From assembly GCA_001986395.2 (NCBI GenBank), contig MQVO02000033.1:62001-126000 (forward strand): 64,000 nt of DNA, given 5' to 3'. The notes under the pieces were generated by a model. It saw only the letters and a program-made list of their open reading frames with translations. It was not told the DNA's origin and made no database searches. Origin of the DNA: Irpex lacteus. Its lineage: Eukaryota; Basidiomycota; Agaricomycetes; Polyporales; Irpicaceae. The position numbers and the translations under genes are program-made. Positions 4,001-46,165 of the stretch are shown here, piece by piece. How positions within the stretch are numbered: position 1 is the first letter of the stretch; each line of letters begins with the position of its first letter.

Positions 4001-4066
4001 CCTATGCTGGCCACGTGGATGAGCTGGGCGAGGCTACGGGGATTGCAATTGGTGAGGGTAATTGTG

Positions 4067-4438: not shown

Positions 4439-5294
4439 CTTCATCACCCCCGTCAACGCAGCCCCCAGTTCTGCATTTTCTTCGCAGCCTTAGAAATAAT
4501 CCCCGCATGTTCATCGTCATTCTTTTCATCACCCCCATCAACGCAGCCCCCGATTCTGCATTTTCTTCGCAGCCTGATATCCCACATGTAACGCACAAGG
4601 CGAGCCCTGCAAGGCTGAGATGGTCGTTCTAGACGCGTCAAAGAGCCGGAGAGGATGTCGCCGAAGAGGCTAGTCGAGCGAAGGTGGCTAGTGTGAAGCT
4701 CGCGCGTAGTCGCCAGATGTGAAGCGTGTGGAGGGAGGGACAGCCCAGCGAGAGCACAAGACATGTCACCTAGCAGACTGTCAGCCACCAGCGTGAATCG
4801 CAGGCGAACGGGGTTGCTCACCGAAAGATCAAACAGCTGCATGTAGAGGCGGACGTAATACATCGATATCGCCGTCGTTCGCGCGCGACGCTTTCGGCGG
4901 AAGGGAGCGACAGGTGCGGTGTGAGGGGTGTTCGAATAGAAGGAACCCATTGTGACGGTCGAGTACGAGTATAGCCCGAGGTCTTGTGGGTAGAACGGTA
5001 TAGAGGGCTCTCAACAACCAGTGAGTGCCATGAGGTCACGGCGCGGAGGACGATGAGCAACAGGTCGACGACGAAGACGAGGGTTGGAGAGCCATAGGGC
5101 AGGACAGGTAGACTGTAGACGTTGAGCTGAGAGCCCTCGATAGGAGGGAAGGTGGTGGAAGAGAGGAAAGAGCGGTGAGGTCAACTCGCGACGACGGAGG
5201 GACTTTATAGGAATTCAACTACCACGGCTGACATAAGGCGAGCCAAACAACGCGTTCGTCAGTCACGTTCGATCGCGACGACGTGTTGTTTGGC
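4439..5294 (-). repeat. Repeat element copy A (TATA, intron-like segment, tandem tail)
   Basis: One of four related copies (A, B, C, D) of an unrecognised element; A reads on the minus strand. In order of reading: an upstream palindrome (arms GCCAAACAAC and GTTGTTTGGC, 5242-5294), then GTCAGCC, then a TATA-like CTATAAAG near 5203-5209, then a pyrimidine-rich leader with CTTCCACCACC. A short open frame begins MALQPSS and ends SSSSAP. A segment with full intron signals lies at 4770-4821 (GTGAGC donor, GGCTGAC branch-like site, CTAG acceptor, 52 bp). The end holds two tandem copies of a block of about 85 bp containing GCTGCGAAGAAAATGCAG. Longer frames exist but are not kept in copy B because of a 17-bp indel. 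I cannot assign a function; a non-coding or micro-peptide transcript is an inference. Confidence 0.75.
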
Positions 5295-5751
5295 ATCAGC
5301 CCAGAATGAATCGGGGTGGCTGGACGAGAGCGAAGTCAGCCTCTTCTTCATGGTGCAGCTTCAAGGACTATACCTTCGAAGTCGTCGCCTATGGCGATTG
5401 GGATGTGGACGTACGTTTACCCAGCCCAGGATCTTTCATGACGAGAGCTCCGCAATAACTGGGGCCGTTGAGTGCTGAAAGAAGCGATGGCTGTTTGTAT
5501 TTTCCCTTGAAGACATGTCTAAAAACGTACGGCATGCGTGCTGAGTAGTGCTGAAGTGCTCAGGCTGAGGCGCAGAAGGAGACGAACTTGAACATCCGAA
5601 CACAGTAGCGCCCGAGTACAAAGATAAGATAAAAGCCAGACAGATCTAATCAGTCCCCCACTGGCAGCCACCCGCGCTACTAGTACAGGACAACAACGAT
5701 CCCTCGCCAGTATGTAATAGCTGAGTTCCTCGACATTAATAAACTAATACT
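5295..5751. other. Spacer between elements A and B
   Basis: No gene is supported here. The part next to element A (about 5300-5340) resembles the sequence upstream of element B (about 6605-6650), sharing GAGTGCGAAGTCA-like words, so it belongs to the repeated upstream region. The rest, including the AT-richer stretch with AAGATAAGATAAAAGCC near 5622, shows no feature I recognise. Confidence 0.5.
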
Positions 5752-6567
5752 CTTCATCACCCCCATCAACGCAGCCCCCAAATCTGCATTTTCTTCGCAG
5801 CCTCAGAAACAATCCCCACAAGTTCATCGTCATCTTTTCATCATCCCCGTCAACGCAGCCCCCGTTCTGCATTTTCTTCGCAGCCTGATATCCCACATGT
5901 AACGCACAAGGCGAGCCCCCGGAAGGCTGAGATGGTCGTTCTAGACGCGACAAAGAACCGGAGAAGATGTCGCCCAAGAGTGTAGTCGAGCGAAGTTGGC
6001 TAGTAAGGCATGTGAAGGGAGGGACAGCCCAGCAAGAGCACAGGACATGTCGCCTAATAGACCGTCAGCCACCATCGTGGATCGCAAGCAAACAGGGTTG
6101 CTCACCAGAAGACCAACCAGCTGCATGTTAAGGCGGACATAATAATTCGCGCGCGACCCTCTCGGCGGAAGGGAGCGACAGGTGCGGTGTGAGGGGTGTT
6201 CGGATAGAAGGAACCCATTGTGACGGTCGAGTACGAGTATAGCCCGAGTTCTTGTGGGTAGAAGGGTATAGAGGGCTCTCAACAACCAGTGAGTGCCATG
6301 AGGTCACGGCGCGGAGGACGATGAGAAACAGGTCGACGACAAAGATGAGGGTTGGAGAGCCATAGGGCAGGACAGGTAGACTGGTCACTGTATGTGACAG
6401 ACGTTGAACGTTGACTTGCGACCCCTAGAGGAGTCAGTCAAGAGGGAAGGTGGTGGAAGGAAGGAAAGAGAGATGAGGGTCGACTTGCGACGACGGAGGG
6501 GTTTTATAGGAATCCAACCACCACGGCTGACATAAGAGTCAAGGCGGACGATCGCGAGCCAAACAAC
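5752..6567 (-). repeat. Repeat element copy B (TATA, intron-like segment, tandem tail)
   Basis: This is the second copy, in the same orientation as A and closely similar along its length. It keeps the GCCAAACAAC word (6558-6567), a clear TATAAAA box at 6502-6508, the pyrimidine-rich leader with CTTCCACCACC, the micro-frame MALQPSSLSS...SSSSAP, the 52-bp intron-like segment (6054-6105, GTGAGC...TTAG with GGCTGAC inside) and two tail blocks of about 83 bp. Against A it lacks 17 bp just before the intron-like segment and has lost one palindrome arm. Longer reading frames are broken between A and B while the leader, micro-frame and splice signals persist; this argues against a long conserved protein. 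Confidence 0.75.
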
Positions 6568-6671
6568 GCGTTCGCAGCCCATGTTTGATCGCGACGTGTT
6601 ATGTGAATGGCATGGGAGTGCGGCTGGGCATGTACGAGTGCGAAGTCAATCTGAGACCGGGTGCTTGTGGA

Positions 6672-6825
6672 GGATGTATGTCACGAAATATGAGGGAAAA
6701 TGTGGCGGAGGAAAGGAGGATGGGTAGGTCACGAGAAGGAGCTCAACAGACGCGATCAACGAATTCAACGCGTCTGCCGTGATAGTACAACGCGTATCGC
6801 TACCTCACGTGCATCACCCTGGCCA
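6672..6825. repeat. Direct repeat R, right copy
   Basis: This block matches 4067-4235 in the same orientation, with small indels (for example AATTCGAAGTCAACGCGT on the left against AATTCAACGCGT here). Together the two copies bracket elements A and B. The 6826-7052 stretch that follows shows no gene I can support. Confidence 0.75.
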
Positions 6826-7052
6826 GTAAAAGCGAGTTTACTTCAACTCACGGAGTTCGAACCACGTATCACTCTTAGCTGTAGATGTCGAAACCTACAG
6901 TTAGAGAATAAGTATCATTTACAGTTGTGGTACCGGGTCACGCCACGCTGCATATACATTCCACGTCCTCCATACTCAGGCTGTAACTGTCCATGTTGGA
7001 TCGCTGAGTCTTCACATGCTTCACCTCACACCCTCTTCCTCGCAATCTCGAA

Positions 7053-7407
7053 TCAACCCAAAGCTCGCCGCGCATTAGCACGGGCCAGGAACTCCTGCTC
7101 CGACACAAGTCTTTTCTCTTCAGCCGCACGAAGCTTCGCCTCCCTCTCCTTGTATCGTTCAACGCAAGACTGATGAATTCTGGACTTCAAGTGTACGCTT
7201 AGGTGCGTACGAGCCACCCATCCGGGTCGCAACTGTCTTGACGCGAGAACTGATTGGAAGGTCGAACACGCGATACAGAGTACCTTCTTCCCGCACAAGG
7301 ATTCCTCAAAACCTGCCCGGTGTGGCGTTGGTATTAGTGCCGCAGTGACGCCTCATAAGTGCGATAATCATCGTCTTACCCTCGGGAAGTGACTTCTTGG
7401 GAGACAT
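7053..7407 (-). CDS. Small hypothetical protein with Cys/His cluster and charged helix
   Basis: I do not recognise this protein. Two exons (7380-7407 and 7053-7312) join across a 67-bp GTAAGA...CAG intron to give about 95 residues. The start is MSPKKSLPEG. A CGKKVLCIAC cluster is followed by ARTHLSVHLKSRIHQSC, so Cys and His are spaced in a way that could bind zinc. The C-terminal third (ERYKEREAKLRAAEEKRL) is a charged helix or coiled coil. A TATATAA box lies about 95 bp upstream of the ATG on the same strand, which supports a real transcript. A further exon past the TGA cannot be excluded. It could be a host gene or the remnant of a transposon-encoded zinc-finger protein. Confidence 0.5.
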
Positions 7408-7503
7408 CTCGAGCTCGTCGGATGTTGTAGGCGGGTGACTGGGCCTTGTGTATGCGGGCGGATGACCGGGTTTTGTGTGTCCAGTTGTATCTTACGAGGT
7501 GCG

Positions 7504-7510
7504 TTATATA
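7504..7510 (-). promoter_or_regulatory. TATA box of the small Cys/His protein gene
   Basis: The minus strand reads TATATAA about 97 bp before the ATG at 7407. This is the expected arrangement for a fungal core promoter with a short 5' leader. Confidence 0.5.
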
Positions 7511-8037
7511 TACTCCACTCAAGAGATAGTACCACGAATTTTGGCCATCGCCTTCGCGACAGGGTCTCTAATGCCATTGTGTTAAACCAATGGCAACATT
7601 AGTGTGGTGGCCGCCTGTTGTTGTCGTAACTCGAAGTTGGGTACCGGGCGCTGCGGAAACAGAAGTTGTGAACGAGAGGTAAGTAACGGAGGGACCAACG
7701 AGGAGAACATACTAGCAGATATAGTTGTCTTCAACAGTAGGGGCCCGGGCGAATAAGTACATCTGTGGAAGAGAGACACAGCATCACGATGGCATAACCA
7801 GCATTATTACTAGAACGCGGATCATATACGTACTCTACTACTAAGGCGGATACATGAAACAAGCTATACGAAGAATATATCTGTAAAATTACTGTTAATA
7901 ACAATAAGCATATGAAGCCGAGGAACTAAGGACTGAAACCCTATATACTACTACACTAACCAAACAATTAAAACCAAAATGAACGAACAAAAGCTCGCAC
8001 CTACTCTCGTAAACAAGCCTTAACTCGCAGACCAGTT
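7511..8037. other. Intergenic stretch
   Basis: No gene is supported. The right half (about 7800-8000) is AT-rich with short A and T runs and probably serves as the 3' region of the minus-strand gene that ends at 8038. Confidence 0.4.
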
Positions 8038-8709
8038 CTACCTCTCAAAGTCAAAGCTTCCCAAACGTTTGCCCCGCGTCACGAGCAACGTCGGAGAAGC
8101 AGCTCTTATAGGATGAGGTGAGCCGACCCTTCGCGTCGTCGCTCGAGCCTGAGATCCAGTACAATGTGAACCCGAGAGTACTGGTGCTGTCCCCACGTCG
8201 GATAACGCCCTCCTCCTCTTAGGTAACGCCACAGGTAGCGATATCTGAGAAGTAACCATATGCATCGGGTCACGATACGAAGATGGGGGTGGCACTGGTG
8301 TCGTACTGCGAGGCTGCTGAGCTGGGACCGTCAATCGGACGCTACGCGTCGCAGGTTTGCCGGGCGATTCGGCTCTGGAGGGCTCGACCGTTTCCCCTGC
8401 AGTTCGGGTTCGTCTTGATGGCAAGGCTGACAACAGCCCGAGTCTGAGTATGCGCATCCAGCGAGGTCTCGATTGAGTGACTGTAGCTTGGGCATCACCA
8501 GTGTCATAGCTCTCCGAAGCATCAACATCAGGGCGAGCGACGAATACGTTCGAGCTGGTGCTTTCGAGACTTGAGCTTGAGTCGGTGCGGGTCATGGTTA
8601 CATGTCTGGGATGATCGCAAGGAGCTGGAGGCGTCCTGGGCTGATGCGATGGAGAGTTCTTGAGGATACCACGAGGGCGCAGTGGCCCAGGAGCGTCTTT
8701 GGTGGTCAT
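8038..8709 (-). CDS. Hypothetical disordered Ser/Pro/Arg-rich protein
   Basis: A continuous frame of 223 codons starts at the ATG at 8709. I recognise no domain. The sequence begins MTTKDAPGPLRPRGILKNSP, has a serine patch (TDSSSSLESTSSN), Arg/Ser-rich and Pro-rich parts (PSRRTRTAGE, TTPVPPPSSY) and KRRRALSDVG, which could be a phosphorylated basic site. The composition points to an intrinsically disordered, possibly nuclear or regulatory protein. A TATAAAA box at 8903-8909 on the same strand gives a leader of about 170-200 nt that contains a short upstream frame starting MEPPWL. The RGILK word recalls docking motifs, but this alone does not identify a function. Confidence 0.55.
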   Translation of the reverse strand: MTTKDAPGPLRPRGILKNSPSHQPRTPPAPCDHPRHVTMTRTDSSSSLESTSSNVFVARPDVDASESYDTGDAQATVTQSRPRWMRILRLGLLSALPSRRTRTAGETVEPSRAESPGKPATRSVRLTVPAQQPRSTTPVPPPSSYRDPMHMVTSQISLPVALPKRRRALSDVGTAPVLSGSHCTGSQARATTRRVGSPHPIRAASPTLLVTRGKRLGSFDFER

Positions 8710-8902
8710 GCAGATCTAATGTGGCGTGGTGGAGGTTACTGTAGGCAGTACTTGCAGCAGTAGAAGAAGGGCGTAGCCACTGACCAGGAATGTGGTGGCT
8801 GACCGTGACAGAGATCGAAGTCGACGTCAGAGAAAAGAAATCTGCTCTGTAGTTATGCAGATCAGCCAGGGAGGTTCCATCGTCAGGATCTATGTCAGTT
8901 GC

Positions 8903-8909
8903 TTTTATA
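8903..8909 (-). promoter_or_regulatory. TATA box of the disordered-protein gene
   Basis: The minus strand reads TATAAAA roughly 195 bp upstream of the ATG at 8709. One short upstream open frame (MEPPWL...) lies between the box and the main start, so uORF control is possible. Confidence 0.45.
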
Positions 8910-8939
8910 TGTGGTAGCCAAGCAAGCTTTTTCACCCAT

Positions 8940-9558
8940 CAGACTGTAGTGATGTCGCCTCGGCCACATCCCGCTGCGAAGTCTTTTGAGTTCGGTGGCC
9001 ATGGCTCGAACTCACTGAAGGCCTATTTCTAGCTTAGTGGATACTTGGATCTCGGACTCACTGTATGTGTGTACATTGTAGGCCAGTGGCCGTCATGAGG
9101 CACGTATGTACGAACACGAGGCCACCATGCTTTGGCCCTGCTGACGCTGTAGATCTGGATATCCGAAGGAGCGCATTCGAATAGACAAGTGGACAAGAAC
9201 TTACTGTACAGTGGCTGCCAGTGGCTGCCAGTGGTCAACTCTATTCACTGCTCAGATATATTCTCCCCTTTGAGATCACTCACGAAGCTATTCGAAGATT
9301 GAGATGCGTTGGCGGTTGGCCACAGCCTGAGTGGGATGGCCGTGAGCCAGGGTCGGGGATTTCCGTCGGACTTCCCACGCCTGTGTTCCGTTCATCCGAC
9401 CCTTGTGGCCATTGTAACTTGGATCTCGACCATGATGTTCTTTATAGTGTAGCCCGTGAGTGAACTCTCCCTCGCAGGCCACTTCAACAGCCCATTGGAG
9501 TAGATGGTATCAGTACTGAGTACGCAGAAATAGTAAGTCTACTACGTCCAAGAATCAT
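8940..9558. other. Intergenic stretch
   Basis: No gene is supported. A small direct duplication of GTGGCTGCCA occurs near 9212-9232. The remaining sequence shows no motif that I can assign. Confidence 0.4.
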
Positions 9559-10799
9559 TCACAGGACAACCTTCCTTCCCTCCCGGATGCTGGTGAGCGC
9601 AGCATCCACCACACGATAGACATCCACACTGCTCTCAAGCGTCTCGTACACGCCAGTCTTTTCCTTAGCAAACTCCAACCATCCCTTACCAGTGTTCCCC
9701 AGCCTTTTCCCTTCATCACTCTCCCCAACGTCGACCTTCTCGCCGTTCAGGTAGACGTCTTTCTCATGAGTGGCAATTCCATCTCCAGGTGCACCTTTCG
9801 TAGACTTGACTTCGATGACTCCCTCTTCTCCGTAGATCACCCATCGGAATGGTTCTTCGACGGAAAGACCACCCTGATAGTGGATGTTCACGACGACGCC
9901 GTCGAAGTCTGACGTACGTCCTTTGAGAGCGCCGTTTACGGTGATCTGGTCGTGCGACGTCTTCACGATGGGGTCAGGGAGCGTTTGGCCTGTGGTGGGC
10001 TCGATAACGTGTGCGGTGGGTGTACGGATTGCTCCGAAAGCGCTGACTTCGGCGAGCTCTCCTAGGACGTCTTTCAGAACGACGAGGAAGTGGCCGATTG
10101 GAATGGTGAGCAAAGTAAGGCCTGCGGCAGGTAAAACATCAGTGTTATATTTGAGGAAATGAGAATATGTGGCTGACCATTATTCAAGGAATACATGTAG
10201 GCGTACGGAGGTGTGATGATCTTGCCGAAATACGCTACTGCGCCGTTCTGCACGATATCAACATGAGGCGAGATTATTTCAGAAGGAACTGCATCACATA
10301 CCAACGTAGTCGACAAAACCTTGCCGATCTTCCCAGAGTCGATGATCGCTTTCACCCTCCTAACATAGGCCGCATGGACGCCTTGCGTACCTACCATCGA
10401 CCTCACTCCCTTCGCTTTAACGGCTTCCGCGATGTGCACCGTTTCATCCAAGTTCCTCCCAGGTGCCCACTCCACAAATATCATTTTTCCCGCCTCGACC
10501 GCAAACATCACAACCGCATAATGGTCTGGCACCTTCACAGACACAACCACCATATCCACCTCCGGGTCTCTCGCGATGTCCACTTGACCTTGCGTGCCAT
10601 AGTACGCCTTGACCGTACGTCCAACCTGCTGCGAGTACTTCGAGGCAGCTTCTGCAGCGGATTGCGGAGTGGAGGTGCATAGTGCGGTGAGAGTGTATTT
10701 GTCGGCGAGGAAAGGGTCGAAGATTGGAGGTATGAGGTCGGTGGAGGCCCAGCCTCCTTTAGCGGAGAGACCGATGACCCCGAGACGGATAGGTGCCAT
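9559..10799 (-). CDS. Gfo/Idh/MocA-fold protein, GAL80-like
   Basis: Two exons give roughly 400 residues. The N-terminal Rossmann half begins APIRLGVIGLSAKGGWAST, a GAL80-style variant of the dinucleotide loop, then YTLTALCTSTPQSAAEAA and PEVDMVVVSVKVPDHY. The family's usual EKP motif, which carries the catalytic lysine in true sugar dehydrogenases, is replaced here by VEWAPGRNL, as in the GAL80 repressor branch. The C-terminal half has IGHFLVVLKDVLGEL, VVNIHYQGGLS and FRWVIYGEEGVIEV, a normal alpha/beta domain. A single intron lies near 10120-10180. Known family members either oxidise sugars with NAD(P) or, like GAL80, act as NAD(P)-binding regulators; the missing lysine suggests the second or an atypical enzyme. 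Confidence 0.85.
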
Positions 10800-24276: not shown

Positions 24277-26993
24277 CTACAGCGCATCGAAGTTGATATG
24301 ATGCGAAGCCTTCCTCCTCTCCAGTTCGTCCGCTCTCTGCAACACAGTCAGCATGCACCAACACAAGATCACTATACCAAAACCAACGCGCACCTTCTCA
24401 TTCAAATGCAACACAAACACCGTAACAGCAAGCACGATCGTCGTCGCCACCATCGTCAACGTCACCCACGGTATCCACTCCCCCGGCCTCAAATACAGCT
24501 CCTTCCTCCACATCCCTCCATCCTCGATCGGCGGGATAATCACTACCTTCGAGTTCGGTATGACTCCTTCCATGTTGATGAAGTGCTCTGGGGTGTGCTT
24601 GGTAGATCCGACAAAGAGGTTTTCGATGTAGTTGTTCGTGCGACCGAGGCCGAAGTAGGAGTAGGGCGTGAGGAGGGATTGGTAGCTTGTTTGTGGGAGC
24701 TGGCCGACTGAGAGGACGGGGTGTGAGTATAAATGGGGGCCGAAGGAGGAAGGGAGGACTTACCTGCCGCGGCTGAACGTCGGCCGCTTGTGTCTAGGAC
24801 GGTATACTTGTACGTTGCCCCTGAGTAGCTGACGCCAAAAGGCTAATAGAGAACGTTCTGTCTGAAGTTCAATGGAAGGATGATTTGGTACTTACATGGT
24901 ATTTCCCACTTCCGTTAGGATATGTGCACAGGCCACTTCCACATGCACCATTTAGCACTTCGTAGATAGAAGTCAGTCACTTCATTTCAAGTGAAAAGAA
25001 TGTAAGCGTACCGATTGCTTTCAAGAAGAACGCGTCATAATAGAAGTTGTTTTGTACGAATAACATATTTCCTTCTCCTTGACTACCCGTCCTCTGCACC
25101 ATAACATCCAAACTTCCCTAAAAACCACACAGAACCGTCAGTCAGCCATCATCACAAAGCATCTCTCAAATCTGAAACACTCACATCTTCATCCATATCC
25201 AAAAACGCAACCCCCACCGCATCCCTCACCTCATTCAACACCTCCGCACCCTTCTGCAACACACTCCATCCTCTCCTCCCATTCTCAGCACATCCCGGCA
25301 CACTCTTCCCATGCTTCCCCCCATGGCATTCAACCGAATACGCCAATCGAGGCGTACGGTCACTTCTGCCTGTCGTCCCGGAGGCAACGATAGCGAGTAT
25401 GTCGGGGAAGCCGTCTTGGTTTACGTCGCCGAGTTTGATGGGGATGGGTACCGAGGGCGATTGGGTGGTGTCGAGGACGAGGAGGAAGGATGCGGAGTTG
25501 GAGTTGGATGAGGAGGAGGGGAAGAGTGTGGTCACGGGGATCCGGACGAAGTCCTATTGGTGACGGACGCAAGATGAGGTTAGGGAAAGCGACATGAACA
25601 TAAGCGCGGTGGTTATAGTGGTAATGACGTACCGGGTTATCGTCTCTCACGGAGAGGTCGAAGCGGAAGTCGGGATCGCCTGTACAGAGCCCTTCAGGCG
25701 ATCTGCACACTCGCTTACCATTCTGTAAACTGGAACTCCCGGGCGAGCAGAGAGGAAGCTGTTTGTTGTAAGCGATATTGATCGCGCAGCCCGTACCAAT
25801 ACCTGTCGACTTCGAGACGGAGTCGCATGTTACAAATAGCATGTCGATCGTTCCATCTCGGTCTACTTTTCTTAGCATGAAGTACAGGCGGGCGAGCTTG
25901 AGCAGACTCACCGATGTCGGCGAAAGAGACTGACTGGAAGCCGGCTGGGAAGCGGCCGGTCATAGCCAGCTCAAAACCGTCATCCTTATTGTTGGTCCAT
26001 ATTTGATAGTAGTGGTCCCTGCCGTTGTCTTCGTCACATACAAGGAAGAGATCTATATAATAGTGAGTCAAAAGGACCGCATTCAAAGCAGAGAGATGGT
26101 TTACCGGCAAGACAGTCACCGTTCAGGTCAACAGCCGCGTTACTATGAGGATTCGATAGCTTGCACTGTGCGCCGTTCAGCTTTGGCTCCGTTCTAGAGT
26201 AAACGAATCTATTCAATCCATCTTCAGGTAGATACACATATCTTCTGACTACGCACATTTCGAAGATATCTGACTGCTCGGCTGAGGCATTCCAAACATT
26301 ACTCCAGACCTTGAATGGTCCACTTGATGACGTCGATGGTATCGAGCCGAAGAGATCTATCTTCAGGTCGCCGTTCGTATCCAGCGGTATTGGCTGCGAT
26401 AGTGTTGAAGCCGGTGCAGATACAGGGTTCAAGTCTGTGCAACAGCTTAGAGTGCATTCTCAGGGAAACAGGAGAGAAACGCACTAAATCCTCCCTCAGG
26501 TAGTCCTGCATACATCGACAAAGCCAGCTGACTTGATATGCGATCCTGGCTCATGACGAGAATGTCCAGCTTCCCGTCTTGTGTGAAGTCGCCTGGGACG
26601 ACATTGTACACCTTCTGTGGATGTCGGAAAAATGTACCCTTGTCAAAGGTGTATCGGTCTGTCGTTCATGAGAAAGTGCGCTTTCTCCTCTTCGTGTTCG
26701 GAGTGCGTACCGTGATTCCATAGGTAGATCGTTAACGTCTGCTGGTCCTTGTTCACTGCCAAGAGATCCAAACTGCAATGTATGTTAAGTCTTATGAAGC
26801 ATATCCACTGCAGTTGCACGCACAATTGGTCTCCGTTAAAGTCCCCGTATGCAATTACCCTGTCATTGCCATCGACACCCATGGACCCTGCCTTGAGCAG
26901 GGAGTTGCCGCTGAACCGCTTTGGAGGAAAGGGCCATATCGCATTCGCTGGCAGTACAAGAAAACAAGCTAGCAAAAGACCTAATGGCAGCAT
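24277..26993 (-). CDS. ITFG1/TIP-like FG-GAP membrane protein
   Basis: Homologue of T-cell immunomodulatory protein, a type I membrane protein with an extracellular beta-propeller. It begins with a signal peptide, MLPLGLLLACFLVLPANAIW, then FPPKRFSGNSLLKAGSMG. Calcium-loop-like FG-GAP motifs follow one after another: GDFNGDQ, LLAVNKDQQ, DTNGDLKIDLFG, DLNGDC, DRDGTIDMLFVT, GDVNQDGFPDILA and FLDMDEDGS. The last exons carry GACGSGLCTYPNGSGKYHPF, LLTPYSYFGLGRTNNYIE and PNSKVVIIPP, family hallmarks. A single membrane helix (WVTLTMVATTIVLAVTVFVL) comes next, with a short cytosolic tail ending ASHHINFDAL, close to the animal ending HFDA. About ten exons. The first two exons were copied into the duplicated unit near 30.0 kb. 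Confidence 0.9.
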
Positions 26994-29615
26994 AGAGTCA
27001 TGCGTACGCCCGCGTTAAGAGCTGCAATCGAGCGACGTTGTGATGCAGAGTCAAAGTAACGACCCAGTGCGCAGTGGTGGCGCAGACCCCGATTATGGGC
27101 GCTATTTTCTATACTCGCTTTGGCTTACGACCTCCACCACCGAAATCAATGTATTCTTCCATGTAACACTTGCTATATGTTTGGCTTGCGACAATCGTAT
27201 AGAATGGCGAACGTGGCTCGTGTGGCGACGACTGACTTGGACAATATTCACTATTCAAGTACCAGCTGATATCCAAGCATGCTGCATCGCCAATCCTCTC
27301 CGCCGTGAAGTCATAGGTAGACTTGACGGACTGTCGACATTCTAGGTGGGTGAAATGGAAAGTCTTTCACTCGGCAAACATTCTAACGCTCTCTTATTAG
27401 TTTATGGCTTCGAATAAGCTCCATGACGCACTATGAAGTGGGGGGTGGAGCATATACCTGAGCCCGTAGAACGCGCCGCTATAAGAAGACTGAGGCTTAC
27501 TGCAGCTGTCAGTCGCTATATCCTTCCCTCTGCTCTCCTCACACAACTTTGATCCCTCACAGGGCTAAACAATGTCAGCCACTGGTGGACCTCCATCTCG
27601 AGTGGACACCCAAATCTCGCCGAGCACGCATCAAGGAGCGCGTACGATGACGCCCACTGCGTATCGTAATAGCTCTGAGACAGGCTTGTCAAGGGTTGAC
27701 GATGACCGTAGAGGGCTCAATGAGAAGGGCGAGAAGAAGGGGGACAATGCTTACACCAAAGTTTACCCCGAGAATAGCTTTGACGTCTATGGCGACGAAG
27801 ACAATGCGGACAGTACGTGCATGCATGCCTTGTGAAGGATGGTGCCTTAACCTCGTATATATCTAGTCAAGTACAGAACGATGGAATGGTGGAAAGCTGC
27901 AGCTCTCATGCTCGCAGAGACAGTCTCCCTAGGGGTGCGTACCCAGCTCCCTTGACGTTGTTACCCATCTCATCCACTTCAAATAGGTACTTTCACTCCC
28001 ATCTGCCTTTGCAAGCCTAGGTATGGTCGCAGGAATAATCTTGGTAATTGGGTTGGGTACCATAGCCACAATAACTGGCTACGCCATCGGCTCTTTCAAG
28101 CTACGTTATCCACACGTGCACAATATGGCCGATGCAGGCGAAATCCTCGCGGGCCCTGTCGGGAGGGAAGTTCTTGGTTCGGCGCAAGTGATATTCATGG
28201 TGTTCCTATGCGCCAGCCATGTTTTGACTGGGACTATTGCGTTCGATACGAGTACGTTTCCAGTTCTACACCCGAAGCTGATCAATATACTGAAGGAGTT
28301 CTTAGTCACGGATGGTGCATCGTGTTCAGTGGTTTGGGCAATTGTCTCCGCCCTTATTTGCTTCGTCATGACGCTACCTCGCACACTGAACGGCATAGCA
28401 TACCTCAGCGTCGCTTCATTCATTTCCATCCTCGGGGCTATCATGATCACCATGATCGGTGTCGGTATCATTGGCCACCAAGGGACTGTTTCGGTCACGT
28501 CAAATCTGACCTTCGCAAAGGGATTTTTGGCTGTGACGGACATAGTCAGTATACTTATGGTCAACTAAGACCGGGTCATACTGCGGATACTAATCAAGTT
28601 ATTTCATAGATCTTCGCATATGCAGGCCATGTCGCCTTCTTCACATTCATCTCCGAGATGAAAAAGCCTCGCGTGCGTCACATCTCTTCCCTCTCCCTCC
28701 CTCACTCACCCACTGACCTACCTGTTATCATATAGGACTTTCCCAAGACACTCTACGCTCTTCAAATTTGCGATACCACCATCTACCTCATCGTAGGTAT
28801 CGTAGTCTACGCTTATACAGGCGACAATGCGACCTCCCCCGCACTAGGCAACACAGGTGTAACCCTCCGAAAGGTCGCCTATGGTATCGCGTTACCGACG
28901 ATTATGATCGCAGGAGTGATCAACGGGCACGTATGTGCGAAGTTAATCTATATTCGCGTGTACGTACATTTTCTCAGCGGTCACAACAATATCATCATGT
29001 TCTTTAGCTAACGACGTCTCTCATTTAGTTTCCGCCGCGAAGGCCAAACCTCACGCCACATGACCTCGCACACGCTCCTCGGCTGGGGCGTCTGGATCGG
29101 TTCCTGCGTCGCCATCTGGCTCCTCGCCTTCCTCATCGCGGAAGTCATACCATTCTTCAACGACCTGCTCGGTGTCATCTCGTCCTTGTTCGCCGCGTGG
29201 TTTACGTATGGGATCTCCGGTGTGTTTTGGCTGCATTTGAATCCGAGGAAGGAGAGGTGGACGACGGGGTGGATGAAGGTGAAGACAGTGTTTTGGTGGG
29301 GTGTTGTTATGGTATGTGTTTTCGTCGTTCGAGGGAAGAAATCCATGTGAGATTCTGACGGCTTTGCGTATGTACTTACAGATGGGTGCGTTCATCATGG
29401 TTGCAGGGTTGTATGCAAGCATTGTCAGCATCATCGACGGTACGTTAATCACCCGGCCTTGCCTCTCGTAAAACCTCATAACGGGTTGCGGACATTTCAC
29501 AGGCTACAAAGACGGCAGTTTCCCCGCGCCGTTCAGTTGTGTCAATCGTGCCATGACATGAGTGGATTACATGTTCCACTATCTCTTTTTCGGGTTGTTC
29601 GCCGGAGTATGTGCC
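26731..29615 (+). repeat. Segmental duplication, unit 1
   Basis: This unit, holding the 5' part of the TIP gene, the shared upstream region and permease gene 1, is repeated at 29868-32925 in the same orientation. The left edge is sharp: both units begin with GTTAACGTCTGCTGGTCCTT. The right edge fades after the permease stop codon. Coding exons are nearly identical in both, while introns and upstream DNA have diverged, so both permeases are probably under constraint. Confidence 0.85.
27572..29561 (+). CDS. Amino acid permease 1 (AAAP family, mtr-like)
   Basis: Proton-coupled amino acid importer of the AAAP family, closest in pattern to the Neurospora neutral amino acid permease mtr. A hydrophilic N-terminus (MSATGGPPSRVD, later YPENSFDVYGDEDNAD) leads into IKYRTMEWWKAAALMLAETVS and LGVLSLPSAFASLG, the conserved first helix. 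Further helices include GLGTIATITGYAIGSF, VIFMVFLCASHVLTGT and SFISILGAIMITMIGVGII. Skipping a GTACGT...TTAG intron gives FDTITDGASCSVVW, matching the family. Later exons give GHVAFFTFISEM, FPKTLYALQICDTTIYLIV, YGIALPTIMIAGVINGHV and TSHTLLGWGVWIGSC. The protein ends FSCVNRAMT. TATAAGA lies about 92 bp upstream. All exons read open. Confidence 0.9.
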
Positions 29616-29867
29616 ACGAATTATGTTATAACACTAACTTAATCAGCGGGAGGAAGTGTACTCCCGATTGTATCATATCTATCTTAGGACACCATCACGA
29701 ATAATGAAGTTGTCGTGAAACATTCATATTCCGCTGGCGTTGTGTTTATCCTGAAATGAGAAAACGTAGACAGGAACCACGCCCAGCTAACGGGATAGTA
29801 CCGTGAGTATTGAGTATTGAATTGTAAGATGCCATACTGAGGAAGACGAGGTGTTATTATTAGATTG

Positions 29868-30117
29868 TTAACGTCTGCTGGTCCTTGTTCACGGCTCGCA
29901 GGTACAGACTGCGATGTCGTAAGTCTTTAGACACAGTGTCATATTCTCAATCGAAGTCCCCATACGCGACTTTTACCCTGCCGGCGCCATTGCCATCAAC
30001 ACCCAGAGATCCTGCCTTGAGCAGGGAGTTGCCGCTGAATTGCTTCGGAGGAAAGGGCCATATCGCCTTCGCTGGAAGCACAAGAGAAGAAAGCAGCAAA
30101 AGACCTATTGGCAGCAT
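29868..30117 (-). pseudogene. Truncated TIP (FG-GAP protein) 5' fragment
   Basis: The fragment corresponds to the first two exons of the gene at 24277-26993. The start codon and signal peptide remain (MLPIGLLLLSSLVLPAKAIW), followed by FPPKQFSGNSLLKAGSLG and a 4-codon-longer GNGAGRVKVAYGDFD. The copied DNA stops at 29868, inside what would be the second exon, so every propeller repeat beyond the first, the membrane helix and the tail are missing. Within the remnant of exon 2 the sequence has also drifted. If transcribed, it could give only a short secreted peptide of about 56 residues. It is best read as a by-product of the duplication of the neighbouring permease. Confidence 0.8.
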
Positions 30118-30522
30118 AAATTCATGCGTACGCCCTCGTTGAGAATCGCAATCGAGCAACGTTGTGGTGCAGAGTCAAAGTAACGACTCTGGCGCAGACA
30201 CCGATCATGGGCGCTATTTTCCACACTCCCTTGACTTATGACCTCCACCACCGGAATCAGCACATTTCTTTTGTGTAAAATCTGCTACATTTGCTTGCGA
30301 TTACTGTACAGAACGGTGATCTTGGCTCGTGTGGCGAGGACTGGTTTGATCGATATTCACTATCCAAGCTTCAAGCATCGGCTGACACCTTATAAGTATG
30401 CTGCATCGTCAGTCCTCTCCGCCGTGAAGTCATAGCTATAGATAGTCTTGACGGGCTGTCTACATTCTAGGTGAGTGGAATGTTAAGTATCTCACTCGAC
30501 AAACGACCTGACGCTCTGTTAT

Positions 30523-30770
30523 AGTCTCGTTACTCTCGTACCCAAGATTTTAGGCAGCGGCCCAGTACGGTGGCTTCTTACAGTATCGTTTTAGGACAAG
30601 TTCGTGGCAAAAGAGAAACACCTTTCTCCATCAGCCGTCCCTGGTTCGAAAACGTTAGTCTGGGAACCGGCCTTTTGGACATGACCGAATAGGTAGGAGC
30701 CAGCCGCGACCTCTCGCAGGGCTGGCTTGCGAGACTACGGAAACGTCTGGTTCGAAGCCAGCTCTGTTAT
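30523..30770. mobile_element. 248-bp insertion with 10-bp target duplication
   Basis: Unit 1 lacks this segment; unit 2 has it between two exact copies of GCTCTGTTAT (30513-30522 and 30761-30770). The flanks line up with unit 1 directly across the insertion (CTCTTATTAGTTTATGG against GTTATCAGTTCACGAC). No clear terminal inverted repeats are seen. The insert carries two GGTTCGAA words (about 30644 and 30749), the second reading GGTTCGAAGCC, which fits a pol III B box, with TGGCTTGCGAG some 30 bp before it as a possible weak A box. A SINE-like retroposon is therefore possible. It has no open frame of note and sits in the permease 2 promoter region. Confidence 0.65.
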
Positions 30771-30859
30771 CAGTTCACGACTTCGGATAGGCTTCGTGAA
30801 GCACTGCGAACAATGGAAGTGGAGGGTAAAGCTGCTATAAGACACGGCTCTCGTGGCCA

Positions 30860-32872
30860 ATGTCAGTCGCTAGCGGACGTGTACCTCAAGCGAACACATA
30901 TCTCGCCGAACAAGGAGCGCGAACGATGACGAGCACCACGTATCACATTAGCTCTGAGACAGGCTTGCCAAGGCCCGACAACGACCGCAAAGAGCTCAAC
31001 GAAAAGGGTGAAAACGAGGATAACAATGCTTGCACTAAAGCGTACCCCGAGAATAGCTTTGATGTCTATGGTGACGAAGACGACGCGGACAGTACGTGCA
31101 TACACACATTGGAATATATATTTGACACTAAAATTATATACCCAGTCAAATACAGAACGATGGGATGGTGGAAGGCCGTAGTTCTCATGATTGCACATAC
31201 GGTCTCCCTTGGGGTGCGTGCTCAGCCCTTTCGGTGGTTATTATCCTTCTAATCTACTTGATATAGGTCTTCTCCCTTCCATCGGCGTTCGCAAGTCTAG
31301 GTATGGTTGCGGGAATCTTCTTGATTATTGGTCTGGGTGCCATAGCCACAATAACTGGCTACGCCATCGGCTCTTTCAAGCTTCGCTACCCACACGTGCA
31401 TAACATGGCAGATGCAGGCGAAATTCTGGCGGGCCCCATCGGGAGAGAGGTGCTCGGGTCGGCGCAAGTTATATTCATGGTGTTCCTGTGCGCCAGCCAT
31501 GTCCTGACTGGGACTATTGCATTTGATACGAGTACGTTGCTATTTGTATACCCGAAGCTGAGCAGTATACTGAAAGATATGTCAGTAACGGATGGTGCTT
31601 CTTGTTCAGTGGTTTGGGCAGTCGTCTCTGTCGTTATTTGCTTCGTCATGACGCTACCTCGCACACTCAACGGCATTGCAAATTTCAGTGTTGCTTCATT
31701 CATTTCCATCCTCGGGGCCATCATGATCACCATGATCGGTGTCGGTATTATTGGACACCAAGGGACTGTTTCGATGACGTCAAATCTCACTTTCGCAAAG
31801 GCATTCTTGGCCGTGACAGACATAGGCAGTATACTTATCACCTCTCTCATTATTCTGAAAGTAACATTGAGACTGCTTACAGATCTTCCCGTTTGCAGGC
31901 CACATCGGCTTCTTCACATTCATCTCCGAGATGAAACAGCCTCGCGTGAGTCCCTTCCCTTCTCTCTCTTAATTCCCCTCTCCTCCATTCACTCACTCAC
32001 TTATCTATTTATTTCTGCATATAGGACTTTCCCAAAGCCCTCTACGCTCTTCAAATATGCGACATCACCATCTACCTCATCGTAGCCATCGTGGTCTACG
32101 CATATACAGGCGACAATGCTATTTCCCCCGCACTGGGCAACACAGGTGTCGCTCTGCGAAAGGTAGCCTACGGCATCGCATTACCGACGATTATGATCGC
32201 TGGAGTGATCAACGGGCACGTATGTGCAAAATTGATCTATATTCGCGTGTACGTGCCCTCTCTGTCTCTTATCAACCACAATCATACACCTTGTCACGTC
32301 AGCTGACAACGTACGAACGTTCCTTCGCAGATTCCGCCGTGAAGGCCAAACCTCCCGCCACATGACCTCCCACACGTTCTTCGGCTGGGGCGTCTGGATC
32401 GGTTCCTGCGTCGCCATCTGGCTCCTCGCATTCCTCATCGCAGAAGTCATACCATTCTTCAACGACCTTCTCGGTGTCATCTCGTCCTTGTTCGCCGCGT
32501 GGTTCACGTACGGGATCTCCGGTGTGTTTTGGCTGCATTTGAATCCGAGGAAGGAGAGGTGGACGACGGGGTGGATGAAGGTGAAGACGGTGTTTTGGTG
32601 GGGTGTTGTTATGGTACGTGTTTCCGTCGTTCGAGGGAAGGAAATCCGTATGTGATTCTGACGGGGTGTGCGTGTGCTTGCAGATGGGCGGCTTCATCAT
32701 GGTTGCAGGTTTGTATGCAAGCATTGTCAGTATTATCGATGGTACGTTGGTCATCCAGACTTATCACTCATAAATAAAAAACCGACATTAATGTGTCGCG
32801 GACATTCTAACAGGATACAAAGACGGCAGTTTCCCTGCGCCATTCAGTTGTGTCAACCGTGCCATGACATGA
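30860..32872 (+). CDS. Amino acid permease 2 (AAAP family, mtr-like)
   Basis: Paralogue of the permease at 27572-29561, with the same exon plan. Membrane exons are nearly identical: AIATITGYAIGSF, FLCASHVLTGT, the spliced FDTITDGASCSVVW, YALQICDITIYLIVAIVVYAY, YGIALPTIMIAGVINGHV, ending FSCVNRAMT. One difference in the first helix segment is WWKAVVLMIAHTVSLGVFSLPS, with His in place of the conserved Glu of permease 1. The N-terminal 70 residues have diverged more. The ATG at 30860 lies only about 24 bp after the TATAA at 30836-30840, because about 68 bp of leader present in gene 1 is missing; the in-frame ATG at 30925 (MTSTTYHISS) may be the start used. Exons read open, so the gene appears functional. 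Confidence 0.87.
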
Positions 32873-33056
32873 TGGGATTTCATGGATCCACTATGTCTTT
32901 CTCTTGGGTCGTCCGCTGGAATACATACTACTTATGCTAGACCCGATTCAATTAATCAAAGAGACTGCAATCATTGTTGTACCATAGCCAGCGGTATGTA
33001 TCATAGTACGCTTCAACAATCAAAACACGATGAAATGGTGTAGAGTTCCTGGGAAT

Positions 33057-41118: not shown

Positions 41119-41295
41119 GAATAGTAATATTGGACTCTCGTTCACCTGGATATTTGATACTCAGGACTATGATTCTGGGTATGGATTCTTTCTGTCGTTT
41201 ACACGTGTACATTTTAGCTGTAGTCGTACCCGCTTGCCGGTACTGTTAAATACGTTCATTATCTGGGAGTTGACCTGAGAAATACCTTTATACCA

Positions 41296-43223
41296 CTACT
41301 CCCTCGGGATTTTATATGCGCTCCTCTTTCCTTTCACGTCCTTCGCCCTATAATACTCAAACTCATCATCCACCGCCTCAATAAGATCGGCTTTCTCCAA
41401 AAATTCCAACGCGTCTCTGAAGCTTACAATATAAGACTCAGTCTTTCTCCGTGGTAAGGGTCAAAGTACTCACATGGTATCGCTGTAGGATATGTTATCT
41501 TGGCTATGCGTCCTCTTGACGTGTTTCGCGATGTCTCGTATGTGCACACCACCGGAAGAACCGTCTTCTTTGATCTTGAGTAAAATACTTCTCTGGAGTA
41601 ACGTGAGATGAGATAATGGATCTCGTGTAGACAGTTGAGGTCTCCGGTTATTGGTAGTACGTTCCGTGGCAGGTGAGGCAGGTGTCGACGACGTAGAAGT
41701 CCTGGATGAGGAACTGCCAGCGGCGGTTGCGGCACGTGTAGAAGTACCTGCACGACGGCTATCTGGAGTGGGAGATTCGGGTGTTGAACTCGATTCGGTA
41801 GCTGCGCTTCTTCCCTTACTCTTGCTTGTGCTAGTGGCAGTGGAAGAGGCGGATCTGGTCTGCTTAGACCCAGGGCTATTCAGAGCAAGCGATCCCGTTC
41901 CACTAACAGAAGGGGACGTAGCGCTTGCATCTCTCCAAATCTCACGACGGCTCTCCGGGGCAGGAGAGGTTGGAGTCGGTTCGGTCGCGACACCTTTGTC
42001 TTTCCATCTACCCTTAACAGTAGTGCTAGGACCGGTCGTGAACCTAGTCTGCTTAGAGCCAGCCTGAGCACCACTAGCCTCGGCCGCACCAGCAGGACTG
42101 TTTAAGTTGAGAGATCCCATAGCACCGGTCGGGGACGTAGGGGACTGTGCTCTTGTACTTGTACTGCGCGATGGCTTTGTAGGGGTGTGCGGTGCTGAAG
42201 GAACGGAAGGTAGATCGTGTGGAGACTGTCGAGGTGCTCGAGGTGCGGATATCGTTCTCGCCGGAGCGGGCGTGTTCGTAGGGTGGTCCTTCAGTACGCT
42301 GGGTTCGTACATGTCGTCGTCGTCGCTATCCGAGCTGTCGCTGGAGCCTGCGTCCACCTGTCGACTCTTGCCTTTCACGTCCTTATGATCATCGGCCTCA
42401 GGTTCACGTCGCATGATCGAACCGGGCTATTATGAATGAGTATATCAGATTACGATATGTTGTATCGAACTGTGGAGGACGCTGTTATGACATGACAGAA
42501 AACTCACCGGTGGCCCCCTTTCGTACATCAACTCGGTCTTAACAACTTCTAACACGTGGTGATATGGCTCGTGAGGATCGGCTACAGGCCTCATGTAGTC
42601 TATCCTTAGAAAGTTCTTTCCACCCCCGAACTTCGACTCGTCCACGCGTCCCACGATACTCACATACCGCAGGCTTGGCAGGACACCTCGTTCGGATCTG
42701 GGAAGCAACGGAGCATACTCGTCTGAGTCTATGCCAGACAAGGACGCGAAGAGTGGCTGGTTCGGGTTGATGGTCCCGTCGTCGAGTTTGTAAGTGGCGT
42801 AGGAACGGTTGATGTTCTCTTCTCGGATCGTGGCTACGATGCGTACCTATAGTATATGGAACGAATGAGTACATAAGCACACTGCAACTTTGGGGATGTG
42901 GAAAGATGAGGCTCGGATTTCATATAGAAAAGATTGAATGGGGAAATGCAAATGGCATGGACGTACGGATTGAAAACTACGTCCGTTCAGCACAAACAGC
43001 TTGGTCGCTGGATCGCGTTGTGCTTTCAGGAGTTGGCGTAATGTCACCGGTCGAAGGACGTCCTTCTGAGATATTTTCTATTCCACATGTCAGTGGGGGT
43101 GTTATGCAATCTCTCTGTGGCTCTATACAGGGTATTGAAGATACACACCCATTTTGATTGAGAAGCGGATGATTGTTCGAGTTCAAGTTCATCAGCGCTA
43201 CCATCAGCTTGAGTTCCAGCCAT
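41296..43223 (-). CDS. RPA2-like protein (RPA32 paralogue) with long linker
   Basis: A divergent second RPA32. Exon 1 reads MAGTQADGSADELELEQSS; a 65-bp-range intron leads to KISQKDVLRPVTLRQLLKAQ, the RPA2 start of the OB fold. Then come VRIVATIREENINRSYATYKL, DDGT, LRYVSIVGRVDESKFGGGKN and FLRIDYMRPVADPHEPYHHV, parallel to RPA2. Between the OB fold and the C-terminal winged helix (LTLLQRSILLKIKEDGSSGG, VHIRDIAKHVKRTHSQ, EFLEKADLIEAVDDEFEYYR) lies a disordered linker of about 280 residues. Ordinary RPA32 has only about 25-40 there. The linker is Ser/Pro-rich, has an acidic patch (SSDSSDSDDDDMYEP) and an internal repeat (GSLNLNSP...GSKQTR and GSLALNSPGSKQTR). The canonical RPA2 lies at 46458-47737. 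Role unknown; a specialised RPA complex or repair or meiotic role is inference. Confidence 0.82.
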
Positions 43224-43937
43224 CTATGCCAATTCGGCGTGGAAGTTGGGGTTCTTCTCGGTCGTGATTAGTTGTGGCCAAGCCGGCTGTGAGCTCCTAT
43301 GCGGTCAACTGGAGAGATACCTTCGATACGGTATGGTAGGGCTTGGTTACTGAACCCACGACAACCGTGGGTACTATAAGGCTGATAGCACGGATGATTC
43401 AACATTCGGATCTCAGTGAGTACCGTGACGTACTAGAGTCAGTGGCGTCGCAAGCAATGTATCCGTATTGCAGGTCCCGGATTGAGTACCGTTGAGCGGC
43501 CAAGCTTGCAAGCACTGCGATTAATGCCTTCCCACGTGGGGAGAGCAATACTCATGTACTCGGATCACTCTTCACACCTGCCTTCATCTCCTTCAACGCC
43601 TCAGCACTTTGGTACTCACATGCCCTACGTTCTTAAATATGTCTTTGGCGGAAAATATAGGCTGCCAATGCTACTCTGGGCACCAAATGGCCACAATTAA
43701 TCTTGCGGAGCTCTTGTCATGAGACATTCTGTGTTAGGTTATCCCCATCATCGAAGGTAGCTACTTCGAGGGTGTGGTCCTTGAAGCTTGAAGCTTGAAG
43801 CTGCACATCTGGATATAACAAGGAGAAGTCAACGTGGTATATAACTGGTGCGTACGCCAGAACTTGAAGAGACTGTGTGGCTCGGCTGACTTCGTACTTC
43901 ACACTTGTTCAGCCGCACCATTCCATTCCCGATCGAT
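43224..43937. other. Upstream region of RPA2-like gene and element C
   Basis: No gene is supported. From about 43590 the sequence resembles that before element D (about 44930): both have CTCAGCACT, then ACGTTCT and AAATATGTCT, and later CTTGAAGCTGCAC. So the repeated unit begins before the palindrome. At 43783-43801 CTTGAAG is present as a short tandem triplet. Confidence 0.45.
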
Positions 43938-44755
43938 GCCAAACAACTTGAACGCGTTGTTGCGTTGTGATCGAACATGGCTGACAGGTTTATGTCAGCC
44001 ATGGTGGCGGTTGGATTTCTATAAAATCTCCCTCGTCGTCGCAAGTCAATCCTCATCTCTCTTTCCTCTCTTCCACCACCATCCCTCCTCTCGACTGCCT
44101 CCTCTATGGCTTGCAGGTCACAACGGGTCGATGTCTGTGCCACTTCTGGTCTATCTGCTATACTCTATGTCTTCTAGTCTTCGTCTCTCGTCGTCGCCGC
44201 CGTCCCCCTGATGCTCACCGTCTGTCGTGACTCCCTCCACGCTGTGACCCCGACCGGCCTGCCACCTCCCAAAGTCCAGCAAATAGCCTACCCTCTTGAC
44301 CCTCGACCACTCCTCATGGCATACACTAGTAGTTGAAACCCCTACAGACCCTCCGACTCGCTGTTTTCGCAGGTTGGCCTTCATACGCCGGTGAGCACTC
44401 ATGCGTCTCATCTATCTCTCCTCGGGGCTAATCATTTTCATGCAGACTTTGGTGGTGCTAGTTGAGACGTCAACCCGCCCAGCTCCAGCAGTTGGTCAAG
44501 AGATGGACATGATAAGGCTGCGAAGAAAATGCAGAACGGGGGCTGCGTTGATGGAGGTGATGCAAAGATGACGATGAACTCGTAGGGATCATTTCTAAGG
44601 CTGCGAAGAAAATGCAGACATGGGTGCCCATAGCGGCGTTGGTGGTGGTGATGAAAAGTTGACGATGAACTTGCGGGGATTTTTACTATTCCTAGGCTGC
44701 GAAGAAAATGCAGAACTGGGGGCTGCGTTGGCGGTGATGCGAAAGAGAAATAGCT
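43938..44755 (+). repeat. Repeat element copy C (TATA, intron-like segment, tandem tail)
   Basis: Third copy, plus strand, opposite to A and B. It keeps GCCAAACAAC (43938-43947), GTCAGCC, a TATAAAA box (44020-44026), CTTCCACCACC, a short frame starting MSVPLLVYLL (44132) that ends at a TGA near 44209, and an intron-like segment at 44391-44445 (GTGAGC...GGCTAAT...GCAG, 55 bp). The tail has three blocks starting at 44515, 44598 and 44694, each opening AGGCTGCGAAGAAAATGCAG. The middle part between the short frame and the intron has diverged from A and B. A 3' segment (about 44835-44870: TTCTCGTCTTGTAC, GGACTTCTTCGGCGAAT) recurs after copy D. Confidence 0.75.
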
Positions 44756-45199
44756 TGCCAATGTCGGAAAACTGGCTGGGATCGTCTTTCTGTCTGTCTT
44801 GCTCTATCCTGTTGCTGGCAAACTGATCCGCTCGGTTCTCGTCTTGTACATGGACTTCTTCGGCGAATACAATCGGATCTTCTTCCTGTGTTACTGCTCT
44901 TGTTCTCTCTCCTTCGACGTCTAAAGCCTCAGCGCTCAGCACTCAACACCTCCACGTTCTCAAATATGTCTCCAAAGGAACGATATACGTTGAAGCTGTT
45001 ACCATAGGTATCCTACTACCAGGGTCAACCGCCACAATGGACTTTGCGGAGTTATGAGCCGTTCTGTGCCGCAAGTTCGAGAGTGCACTCCTTGAAGCTG
45101 CACCTCGAAGACGAGTCAAAATAGTATCTGGTGCGTGCGAGGAGAGGCTCTCTGCTGCTGGGCTGATTTCGCACTTCAACGTGTCCAGCCTGGACCGAC
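44756..45199. other. Spacer between elements C and D
   Basis: It contains the shared 3' segment of element C (near 44835-44870) and, from about 44930, the upstream region of element D, with CTCAGCACT and TTGAAGCTGCACC words. No gene is supported. Confidence 0.45.
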
Positions 45200-46165
45200 G
45201 CCAAACAACGCGCCGCCGCGATCGAACATGGCTGACGAGTTGTTTGGCTCGTCTTATGTCAGCCGCGGTGGTGGTTGGATTTCTATAAAATCCCCCCGTC
45301 GTCACAAGTCAGCCCTCACCGCTCTTTCCTCTCTTCCACCACCATCTCTTCTAGACTGCCTCCTCTTGGACCCGCAAGTCGCAGCGAGTCAATGTCTGTG
45401 TCACCTCTAGTCTATCTGCTCTACCCTATGTCTCTCTCTCCTTCGTCGTCGTCAATCCTCCGTTGCCCGTCGTCTTCCGCGCCGTGACCTGGCCTGCAAC
45501 TTTCCAACGTCCAGCAGCAGCCTGCCCTCTATCATGCACCACTCCTCAGGGCACTCACCCCTCAATACGGGATGCTCAGGCTGGCATCTCCCATCGTTGC
45601 TAAGAGGGAATCATCACTCGAGTTTCCTTGTGCAGTCGACAGGGTCTTTCGGTGAGTACCTGATTTGTTGACGACTCACTTACGGTGGCTGACAGCCTGT
45701 AAGTAGGCGCTATATCTCGTGCTCTGAGCTCTCCTGCTAGCTGTGCCTAGCTGTGTCTTCCCTGACATCTGGCGACTACGCTCAACCTTCATACTAGCCA
45801 CCTCCGCGGGACTCTCCTCTCTCTGTGGCTCTCAGCTTCTCCGAAGCATCAAATCCAGAACGATCACCTCAGCCTCCCGCCACTCGGCTCGCTTTAGGCA
45901 TTTGTAGGACTTAAGGCTGCGAAGAAAATGCAGAATTGGGTGCCCACGCGGCGTTGACGGGGGTGATGAAAAGATGACGACGACGATGAACACGCGGGGA
46001 TTGCTTGTTTTACTAGGCTGCGAAGAAAATGCAGAACTGGGAGCCCTTGCGGCGTTGACGGGGGTGATGTAAAGATGTCTATGAACTCGCGGGATGGTTT
46101 CTATTACTAGGCTGCGAAGAAAATGCAGAATTGGGGGCTGCGTTGGTGGGGGTGATGAAGAGAAT
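45200..46165 (+). repeat. Repeat element copy D (TATA, intron-like segment, tandem tail)
   Basis: Fourth copy, same orientation as C. The upstream palindrome is complete (GCCAAACAAC at 45200-45209 and GTTGTTTGGC at 45239-45248). A TATAAAA box lies at 45284-45290. The short frame begins MSVSPLVYLLYPM (45392) and ends with SSSAP at a TGA near 45485, similar to A and B at its end and to C at its start. The intron-like segment is 45652-45706 (GTGAGT...GGCTGAC...GTAG, 55 bp), preceded by GGGTCTTTCG, much as in A. Downstream CATCTGGCGACTACGC matches A. The tail has three blocks starting at 45914, 46015 and 46109. After it comes a TTCTCGTCTTG segment shared with C (about 46239). Confidence 0.75.

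Follow-up and report, generated by a model that had tools for sequence, protein, structure and literature searches.

The window analysed here, a 64,000-nucleotide stretch of the Irpex lacteus genome (C23:62001-126000), carries four similar units, copies A to D. The original prediction, made from the letters of the window, saw in them a four-copy family with its own promoter and splice-like signals, which is either noncoding or makes a micro-peptide. What is this family, how far does it extend, and does it encode a protein? In the whole genome the units belong to a set of at least 27 places, 26 of which carry in their tails a near-invariant box of 19 nucleotides (nt), GGCTGCGAAGAAAATGCAG. Based on the promoter, intron and box signals, together with the lack of a conserved long frame, it is rather probable that the units form a multicopy family of promoter-bearing, spliced and mostly noncoding transcripts of RNA polymerase II (Pol II), whose boxes would bind a common partner.

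Size of the family

The genome (44.3 Mb, 317 contigs) was searched at the DNA level. Copy B as the query gave 53 matching pieces and copy D gave 47; merged by position, these represent 27 places, of which 12 are located on contig C308, 10 on C23, 3 on C185, and one each on C257 and C1. Counts obtained in this way are lower bounds, and a search of the genome with the most diverged copy, that on C1, as the query found no additional place. The predicted four-copy family was thus borne out and proved considerably larger. A promoter, a TATA box, a pyrimidine-rich leader, a donor site and one to three tail modules are present in 26 copies, and 25 copies have a branch site and an acceptor in addition. 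The remaining place, C185:1048984-1049320, is a truncated member limited to the promoter and the start of exon 1, and here CAATAAA replaces CTATAAA.

Twenty-two of the 27 copies lie within C308 2.29-2.38 Mb and its haplotig. Outside the clusters, the main blocks of C23 and C308 are 87-94% identical, with one block at 80%; a second copy of the CDC45 gene is found on C308 (91% protein identity), and the PHM7-domain gene of C23 has two C308 counterparts at 95-96%. Because of the block identity of 87-94% and the similarity of the two genes, C23 most probably represents the other haplotype of C308, as a divergent haplotig. The copy number is unequal between these haplotypes (10 on C23 and 12 on C308), and it would amount to approximately 17 copies per haplotype if the copies on C185, C257 and C1 belong with the C308 set.

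The tail box

The 26 tailed copies contain 60 boxes, one to three in each. Counted over all 27 copies, 56 sites match the box exactly, 2 differ at one position and 2 at two; there are also 2 sites with six mismatches, but none that differ at three to five positions. Genome-wide, 64 sites match with at most two mismatches, and 60 of these are in the family, compared to a total of 3 for the reversed pattern, which argues that the box is not a product of chance. The four sites outside the family all have two mismatches, and no exact box was found elsewhere in the genome. The exact 19-mer also occurs in a viral contig (L032:6826-6844, the sole exact match among the viral contigs), where it reads as phage coding sequence, and this occurrence is taken as chance.

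The distance from box to box is 78-107 nt and falls in all three phases, and by inspection the frame of the box with respect to the remainder of its module varies among the copies. Since the reading frame of the box varies in this way, the constraint acts on nucleotides. Outside the box, module columns have identities between 0.25 and 1.00, and another strong block surrounds GCTGCGTTG. The exon segments average 0.54-0.69 identity between copies, and exon 1 is the most variable (0.54).

Organization of the four units

Re-inspection of the window sequence confirmed that the four copies lie on the predicted strands with their parts in the predicted order. The whole units rest on the genome DNA search together with sequence inspection, and the features are as follows.

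4439..5294, minus strand: copy A, whole unit
5752..6567, minus strand: copy B, whole unit
43938..44755, plus strand: copy C, whole unit
45200..46165, plus strand: copy D, whole unit
5243..5293, minus strand: inverted upstream arms of A, CCAAACAAC at 5285-5293 and GTTGTTTGG at 5243-5251
5204..5236, minus strand: promoter core of A, from TTATGTCAGCC at 5226-5236 to CTATAAA at 5204-5210
6503..6535, minus strand: promoter core of B
43990..44025, plus strand: promoter core of C
45254..45289, plus strand: promoter core of D
5036..5095, minus strand: short serine-rich (Ser-rich) frame of A, 19 amino acids, candidate coding
6304..6363, minus strand: short Ser-rich frame of B, 19 amino acids, candidate coding
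45428..45487, plus strand: short Ser-rich frame of D, 19 amino acids, candidate coding
4770..4821, minus strand: intron-like segment of A, GTGAGC...CTGAC...TAG, 52 nt
6054..6105, minus strand: intron-like segment of B, 52 nt
44391..44445, plus strand: intron-like segment of C, 55 nt, branch CTAAT, interior unlike A and B
45652..45706, plus strand: intron-like segment of D, branch at 45689-45693, AG at 45703 (AAG) or 45706 (TAG)
4471..4574, minus strand: tail boxes of A, 4556-4574 and 4471-4489
5784..5885, minus strand: tail boxes of B, 5867-5885 and 5784-5802
44516..44713, plus strand: tail boxes of C, 44516-44534, 44599-44617 and 44695-44713
45915..46128, plus strand: tail boxes of D, 45915-45933, 46016-46034 and 46110-46128

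The two or three box-bearing blocks expected per unit correspond to two boxes in A, two in B, three in C and three in D, and the intron-like segments of A, B and C were found exactly where they had been placed, while that of D has two possible AG dinucleotides. The upstream motif proposed to be shared holds in part: B is without the exact left arm CCAAACAAC and C without the exact right arm GTTGTTTGG.

Promoter and intron signals

Over the whole family, CCAAACAAC is exact in 17 of the 27 copies, GTTGTTTGG in 16, and both arms in 12; the arms are separated by 33 nt in 12 of 27. The core motif TTATGTCAGCC is exact in 26 of 27 copies. CTATAAA was scored in 25 of 27 by script and was separately located in all 26 tailed copies; one copy scored without it has a doubled promoter motif, yet the TATA box is present. 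The combined promoter string has 25 exact matches in the genome, all of them in family copies, compared to none for the reversed pattern, and it is therefore not attributable to chance. An exact leader motif, CTTCCACCAC, is found in 14 of 27 copies, and the motif is mostly located 47-52 nt past the TATA box.

Searched by pattern, every tailed copy has one GGTRAG donor (26/26), and a CTRAY branch is found in 25 of them, at +36 in 1 copy, +37 in 19 and +43 in 5. The AG after the branch is 51-67 nt from the donor (in the C1 copy the alternatives are 56 and 74), and the predicted intron length is 52 nt in most copies; C185:1242161 has no match to the branch or the acceptor. These pattern counts, as well as the segment identities given above, exclude the tail-less C185:1048984 and refer to 26 copies. 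In an alignment made without the donors as anchors, the donors of 25 copies are in register, the exceptions being C1 and the truncated C185:1048984. The splice-like signals are thus kept, as had been proposed, and appear to be under constraint. In copy C and the copies at 2366448 and 2376740, the interior sequence is different, but the donor, the branch distance and the AG are kept. This preservation of the intron signals is the best evidence that an RNA may be made and spliced.

Absence of a conserved long frame

Inspection of the copies, whether spliced, unspliced or antisense, revealed no common long frame. A protein search with the longest frame of copy A found no relative among 371 candidates at expectation (E) values up to 1, and a Pfam scan of two frames, from A and C, found no domain. 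The lengths of insertions and deletions (indels) were compared among 25 copies, with C185:1048984 and C1 excluded, in the 203 of 300 pairs above 76% identity, pairs that are not independent. Lengths divisible by three account for 30% of indels in the upstream segment, 16% in the leader, 42% in the short frame, 28% in the rest of exon 1, 37% in the intron and exon 2, and 19% in the tail. Because the box spacings fall in all three phases, the indels outside the short frame are mostly not triplets (16-37%), and neither a relative nor a Pfam match was found, a long protein is unlikely. This agrees with the earlier claim that longer frames are not kept, and no long coding frame appears to be conserved across the copies.

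Proposed mechanism and its alternatives

From these features we infer the following sequence of events. A factor would bind the inverted CCAAACAAC/GTTGTTTGG arms and TTATGTCAGCC, and with the TATA box a Pol II transcript would start, with the pyrimidine-rich leader. The single intron, 52 nt in most copies, would then be removed, and the 3' exon would keep one to three modules, each with its 19-nt box. The boxes are the probable working part and may recruit one partner, either a protein or another RNA; if this partner is shared, many copies could act together. The family would grow by tandem duplication and change by gene conversion and inversion. A more tentative proposal is that the units exemplify a class of fungal RNA, namely, a co-regulated, spliced, noncoding dosage-type family, unequal in copy number between the two haplotypes, whose boxes may recruit or titrate a single dedicated factor in trans. 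In practical terms, 26 tailed copies with 60 near-invariant boxes provide a ready bait for a partner search, and the family is a natural alignment in which constrained parts can be told from free ones.

Several points weigh against the proposal of noncoding transcripts. All of the evidence comes from one genome. The donor and branch column values of 1.00 are forced, since the columns were chosen by the motifs themselves, and the C1 donor was found by pattern, out of alignment with the other copies. Predicted RNA structure provides weak support. The other points concern the short Ser-rich frame: its ATG is aligned in 23 of 27 copies, the phase between start and stop is preserved in 22 of 27, or in 19 of 26 when all columns are used, and its share of triplet indels is the highest of the six regions. 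In addition, the ratio of nonsynonymous to synonymous differences (pN/pS) of this frame in the 17 intact copies is 0.69-0.70, compared to 1.08 and 0.89 for the two alternative frames, with exon 2 controls of 0.77-0.90.

The short frame is the basis of the alternative that survives best, which is followed, in this order, by boxes that work as DNA, a mobile element and a fast-evolving protein. According to this alternative, exon 1 encodes a Ser-rich micro-peptide of 15-27 amino acids, and the intron and boxes lie in a long 3' untranslated region (UTR) that controls the mRNA. In 17 of 27 copies the frame runs uninterrupted to the common stop, and 15 of these have the ATG; this ATG is the first after the TATA box in 14 of 26 copies. 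The pN/pS of the intact copies favours a micro-peptide more than that of all copies does, which is 0.80 compared to 0.86 and 0.94 in the other two frames and 0.78-0.94 in exon controls. However, upstream ATGs are not depleted (15 in the leaders of 26 copies compared to 11 expected), the exon 2 control also goes down to 0.77 in the 17 copies, and the frame stops after 3-7 codons in 5 of 27 copies. Triplet slippage is moreover expected in this frame because of its TCG-rich tract. A micro-peptide is considered unlikely. The original choice between a noncoding RNA and a micro-peptide is narrowed rather than settled: no long frame is kept and the noncoding side is favoured, while the short frame is intact in part of the copies.

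A second alternative is that the boxes work at the DNA level as binding-site arrays for a chromatin or replication factor, transcription being incidental. The constraint on nucleotides, independent of frame, is consistent with this idea, and so is the weak folding support. Structure was predicted on the copy alignment, with C1 and C185:1048984 left out. The predicted module hairpin AAUGCAG/CUGCGUU has a z score of -1.69 in the last modules and -1.84 in the internal modules, with 6 of 100 column shuffles doing equally well in both cases; the whole tail has a z score of -1.9 (5/100) and a single tail alone -1.38. The upstream segment has a z score of -2.63 (3/100) at -2.84 kcal/mol, and no structure was predicted for the leader, exon 1 or exon 2. 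By inspection, a module variant with a 7-nt insert disrupts one hairpin pair. On the other hand, exact boxes were not found away from the family promoter and donor, and the kept splice signals point to a transcript that is used, which makes purely DNA-level boxes improbable.

Evolution of the family

Copies A and B share 97% identity over 238 nt of exon 1, amid other stretches that are mostly 84-90% identical (one 60-nt stretch is 97%), which points to gene conversion. When the alleles of A and B are compared, exon 1 goes down to 0.44-0.65 in the worst 50-nt bins, compared to 0.84-1.00 in the spacers. The most diverged copy, C1:1394900-1395962, has the identical two changes in both of its boxes, and its two modules share 92% identity over 105 nt; the likeness of the modules and the shared changes indicate that modules were duplicated or homogenised inside the copy.

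Two blocks are inverted between the haplotypes, C23:46811-50906 and a block that starts at C23:61930 (window 1 to approximately 4400) and holds CDC45. Their C308 counterparts are 2293046-2297079 and 2301174-2305458, with element clusters alongside. CDC45 is flanked by element clusters of opposite orientation, and this arrangement suggests recombination between inverted copies. It appears that recombination at the copies has rearranged the CDC45 neighbourhood between the two haplotypes.

Could the units instead be a mobile element family, such as a non-autonomous DNA element with its own promoter? Their copy number, their presence on five contigs and the short inverted upstream arms are compatible with this origin. 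However, the 22 copies in the C308 interval and its haplotig count against it, and the limits of BLAST similarity differ among the lone copies C185:1242161, C257 and C1, which speaks against a transposon whose ends are fixed. The spacer DNA is likewise similar between clusters, no box has three to five mismatches, and the kept intron indicates that the copies are not retroposed mRNA. No sign of a transposase or reverse transcriptase was obtained either, since the longest frame of copy A has no relative and the A and C frames scanned have no Pfam domain. A mobile element is accordingly very improbable. Least credible of all is an effector-like, fast-evolving protein family with a conserved promoter and 3' UTR and a hypervariable coding part, for although exon 1 is the most variable segment and diverges more than the spacers between the haplotypes in A and B, there is no common long frame, relative or Pfam domain, 28% of the indels in exon 1 outside the short frame are in threes, and a conversion tract is the better explanation of the A/B divergence.

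Comparison with known RNA classes

At the gathering score, Rfam has no match in the whole window, and a lax Rfam scan restricted to 4300-6900 gave 3 weak matches, with E values of 3.0-3.8; a known RNA family was rejected on this basis. The lack of a matching class noted in the original prediction holds for Rfam, one protein search and Pfam on two frames. The top-scoring small nucleolar RNA (snoRNA) match of the lax scan has an E value of 3.8 and 18.9 bits, compared to a gathering score of 48. GTGATGA in the tail modules resembles the C box of C/D-box snoRNAs, and by inspection CTGA precedes the next box in some modules but is not kept; Rfam gave no C/D-box match at its threshold, no dedicated snoRNA finder having been run.

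The wtf genes of fission yeast are multicopy, clustered, converting and protein-coding, and have a shared promoter. The present family is likewise multicopy and clustered, with apparent conversion and a shared predicted promoter but, unlike in the wtf genes, no long conserved frame was found. Descriptions of fungal noncoding RNAs mostly concern individual transcripts in which little conserved sequence can be recognised. A literature search by 18-mer and by topic, with subscription papers and preprints beyond its scope, returned nothing on the family. A noncoding RNA gene is in itself a known kind, and a multi-gene family around a repeated near-invariant box was not found in the searches made. 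The long intergenic noncoding RNAs (lincRNAs) of Ganoderma lucidum, also an agaricomycete, are, in the passages considered, likewise intergenic and without a long frame (PMC4059649). The main text of that paper contains no use of 'lincRNA famil', 'repeat' or 'copies', and its passages considered here describe no multicopy family with a shared box.

Neighbouring genes

The window also contains fungal housekeeping genes, which encode CDC45, a metallo-beta-lactamase protein, an amino acid transporter and a PHM7-domain protein. Among the best 120 of 252 relatives of the CDC45 protein, identity reaches 65%, and the highest value for a relative assigned to a named organism is 56%, in Agrocybe pediades. 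Copy A lies upstream of CDC45 and copy B upstream of A. The CDC45 upstream region is doubled, with a direct repeat of 83% identity (window 4056-4217 and 6659-6815) that flanks the A/B pair, and C308 likewise has two copies of this repeat. A mating-type locus was considered and rejected: STE3 matches are located on C37 and at C308:1.61 Mb and Homeobox_KN matches on C58 and C187, none of them inside the element clusters.

Elsewhere in the window, positions 26700-32900 form a tandem duplication of approximately 3.3 kb, whose repeat stretches are 78-95% identical, and the amino acid transporter domain sits in its second unit. The PHM7-domain gene, single on C23, is present in two close copies on C308 (2404440-2405381 and 2427013-2427954), the first of which contains one in-frame TAG.

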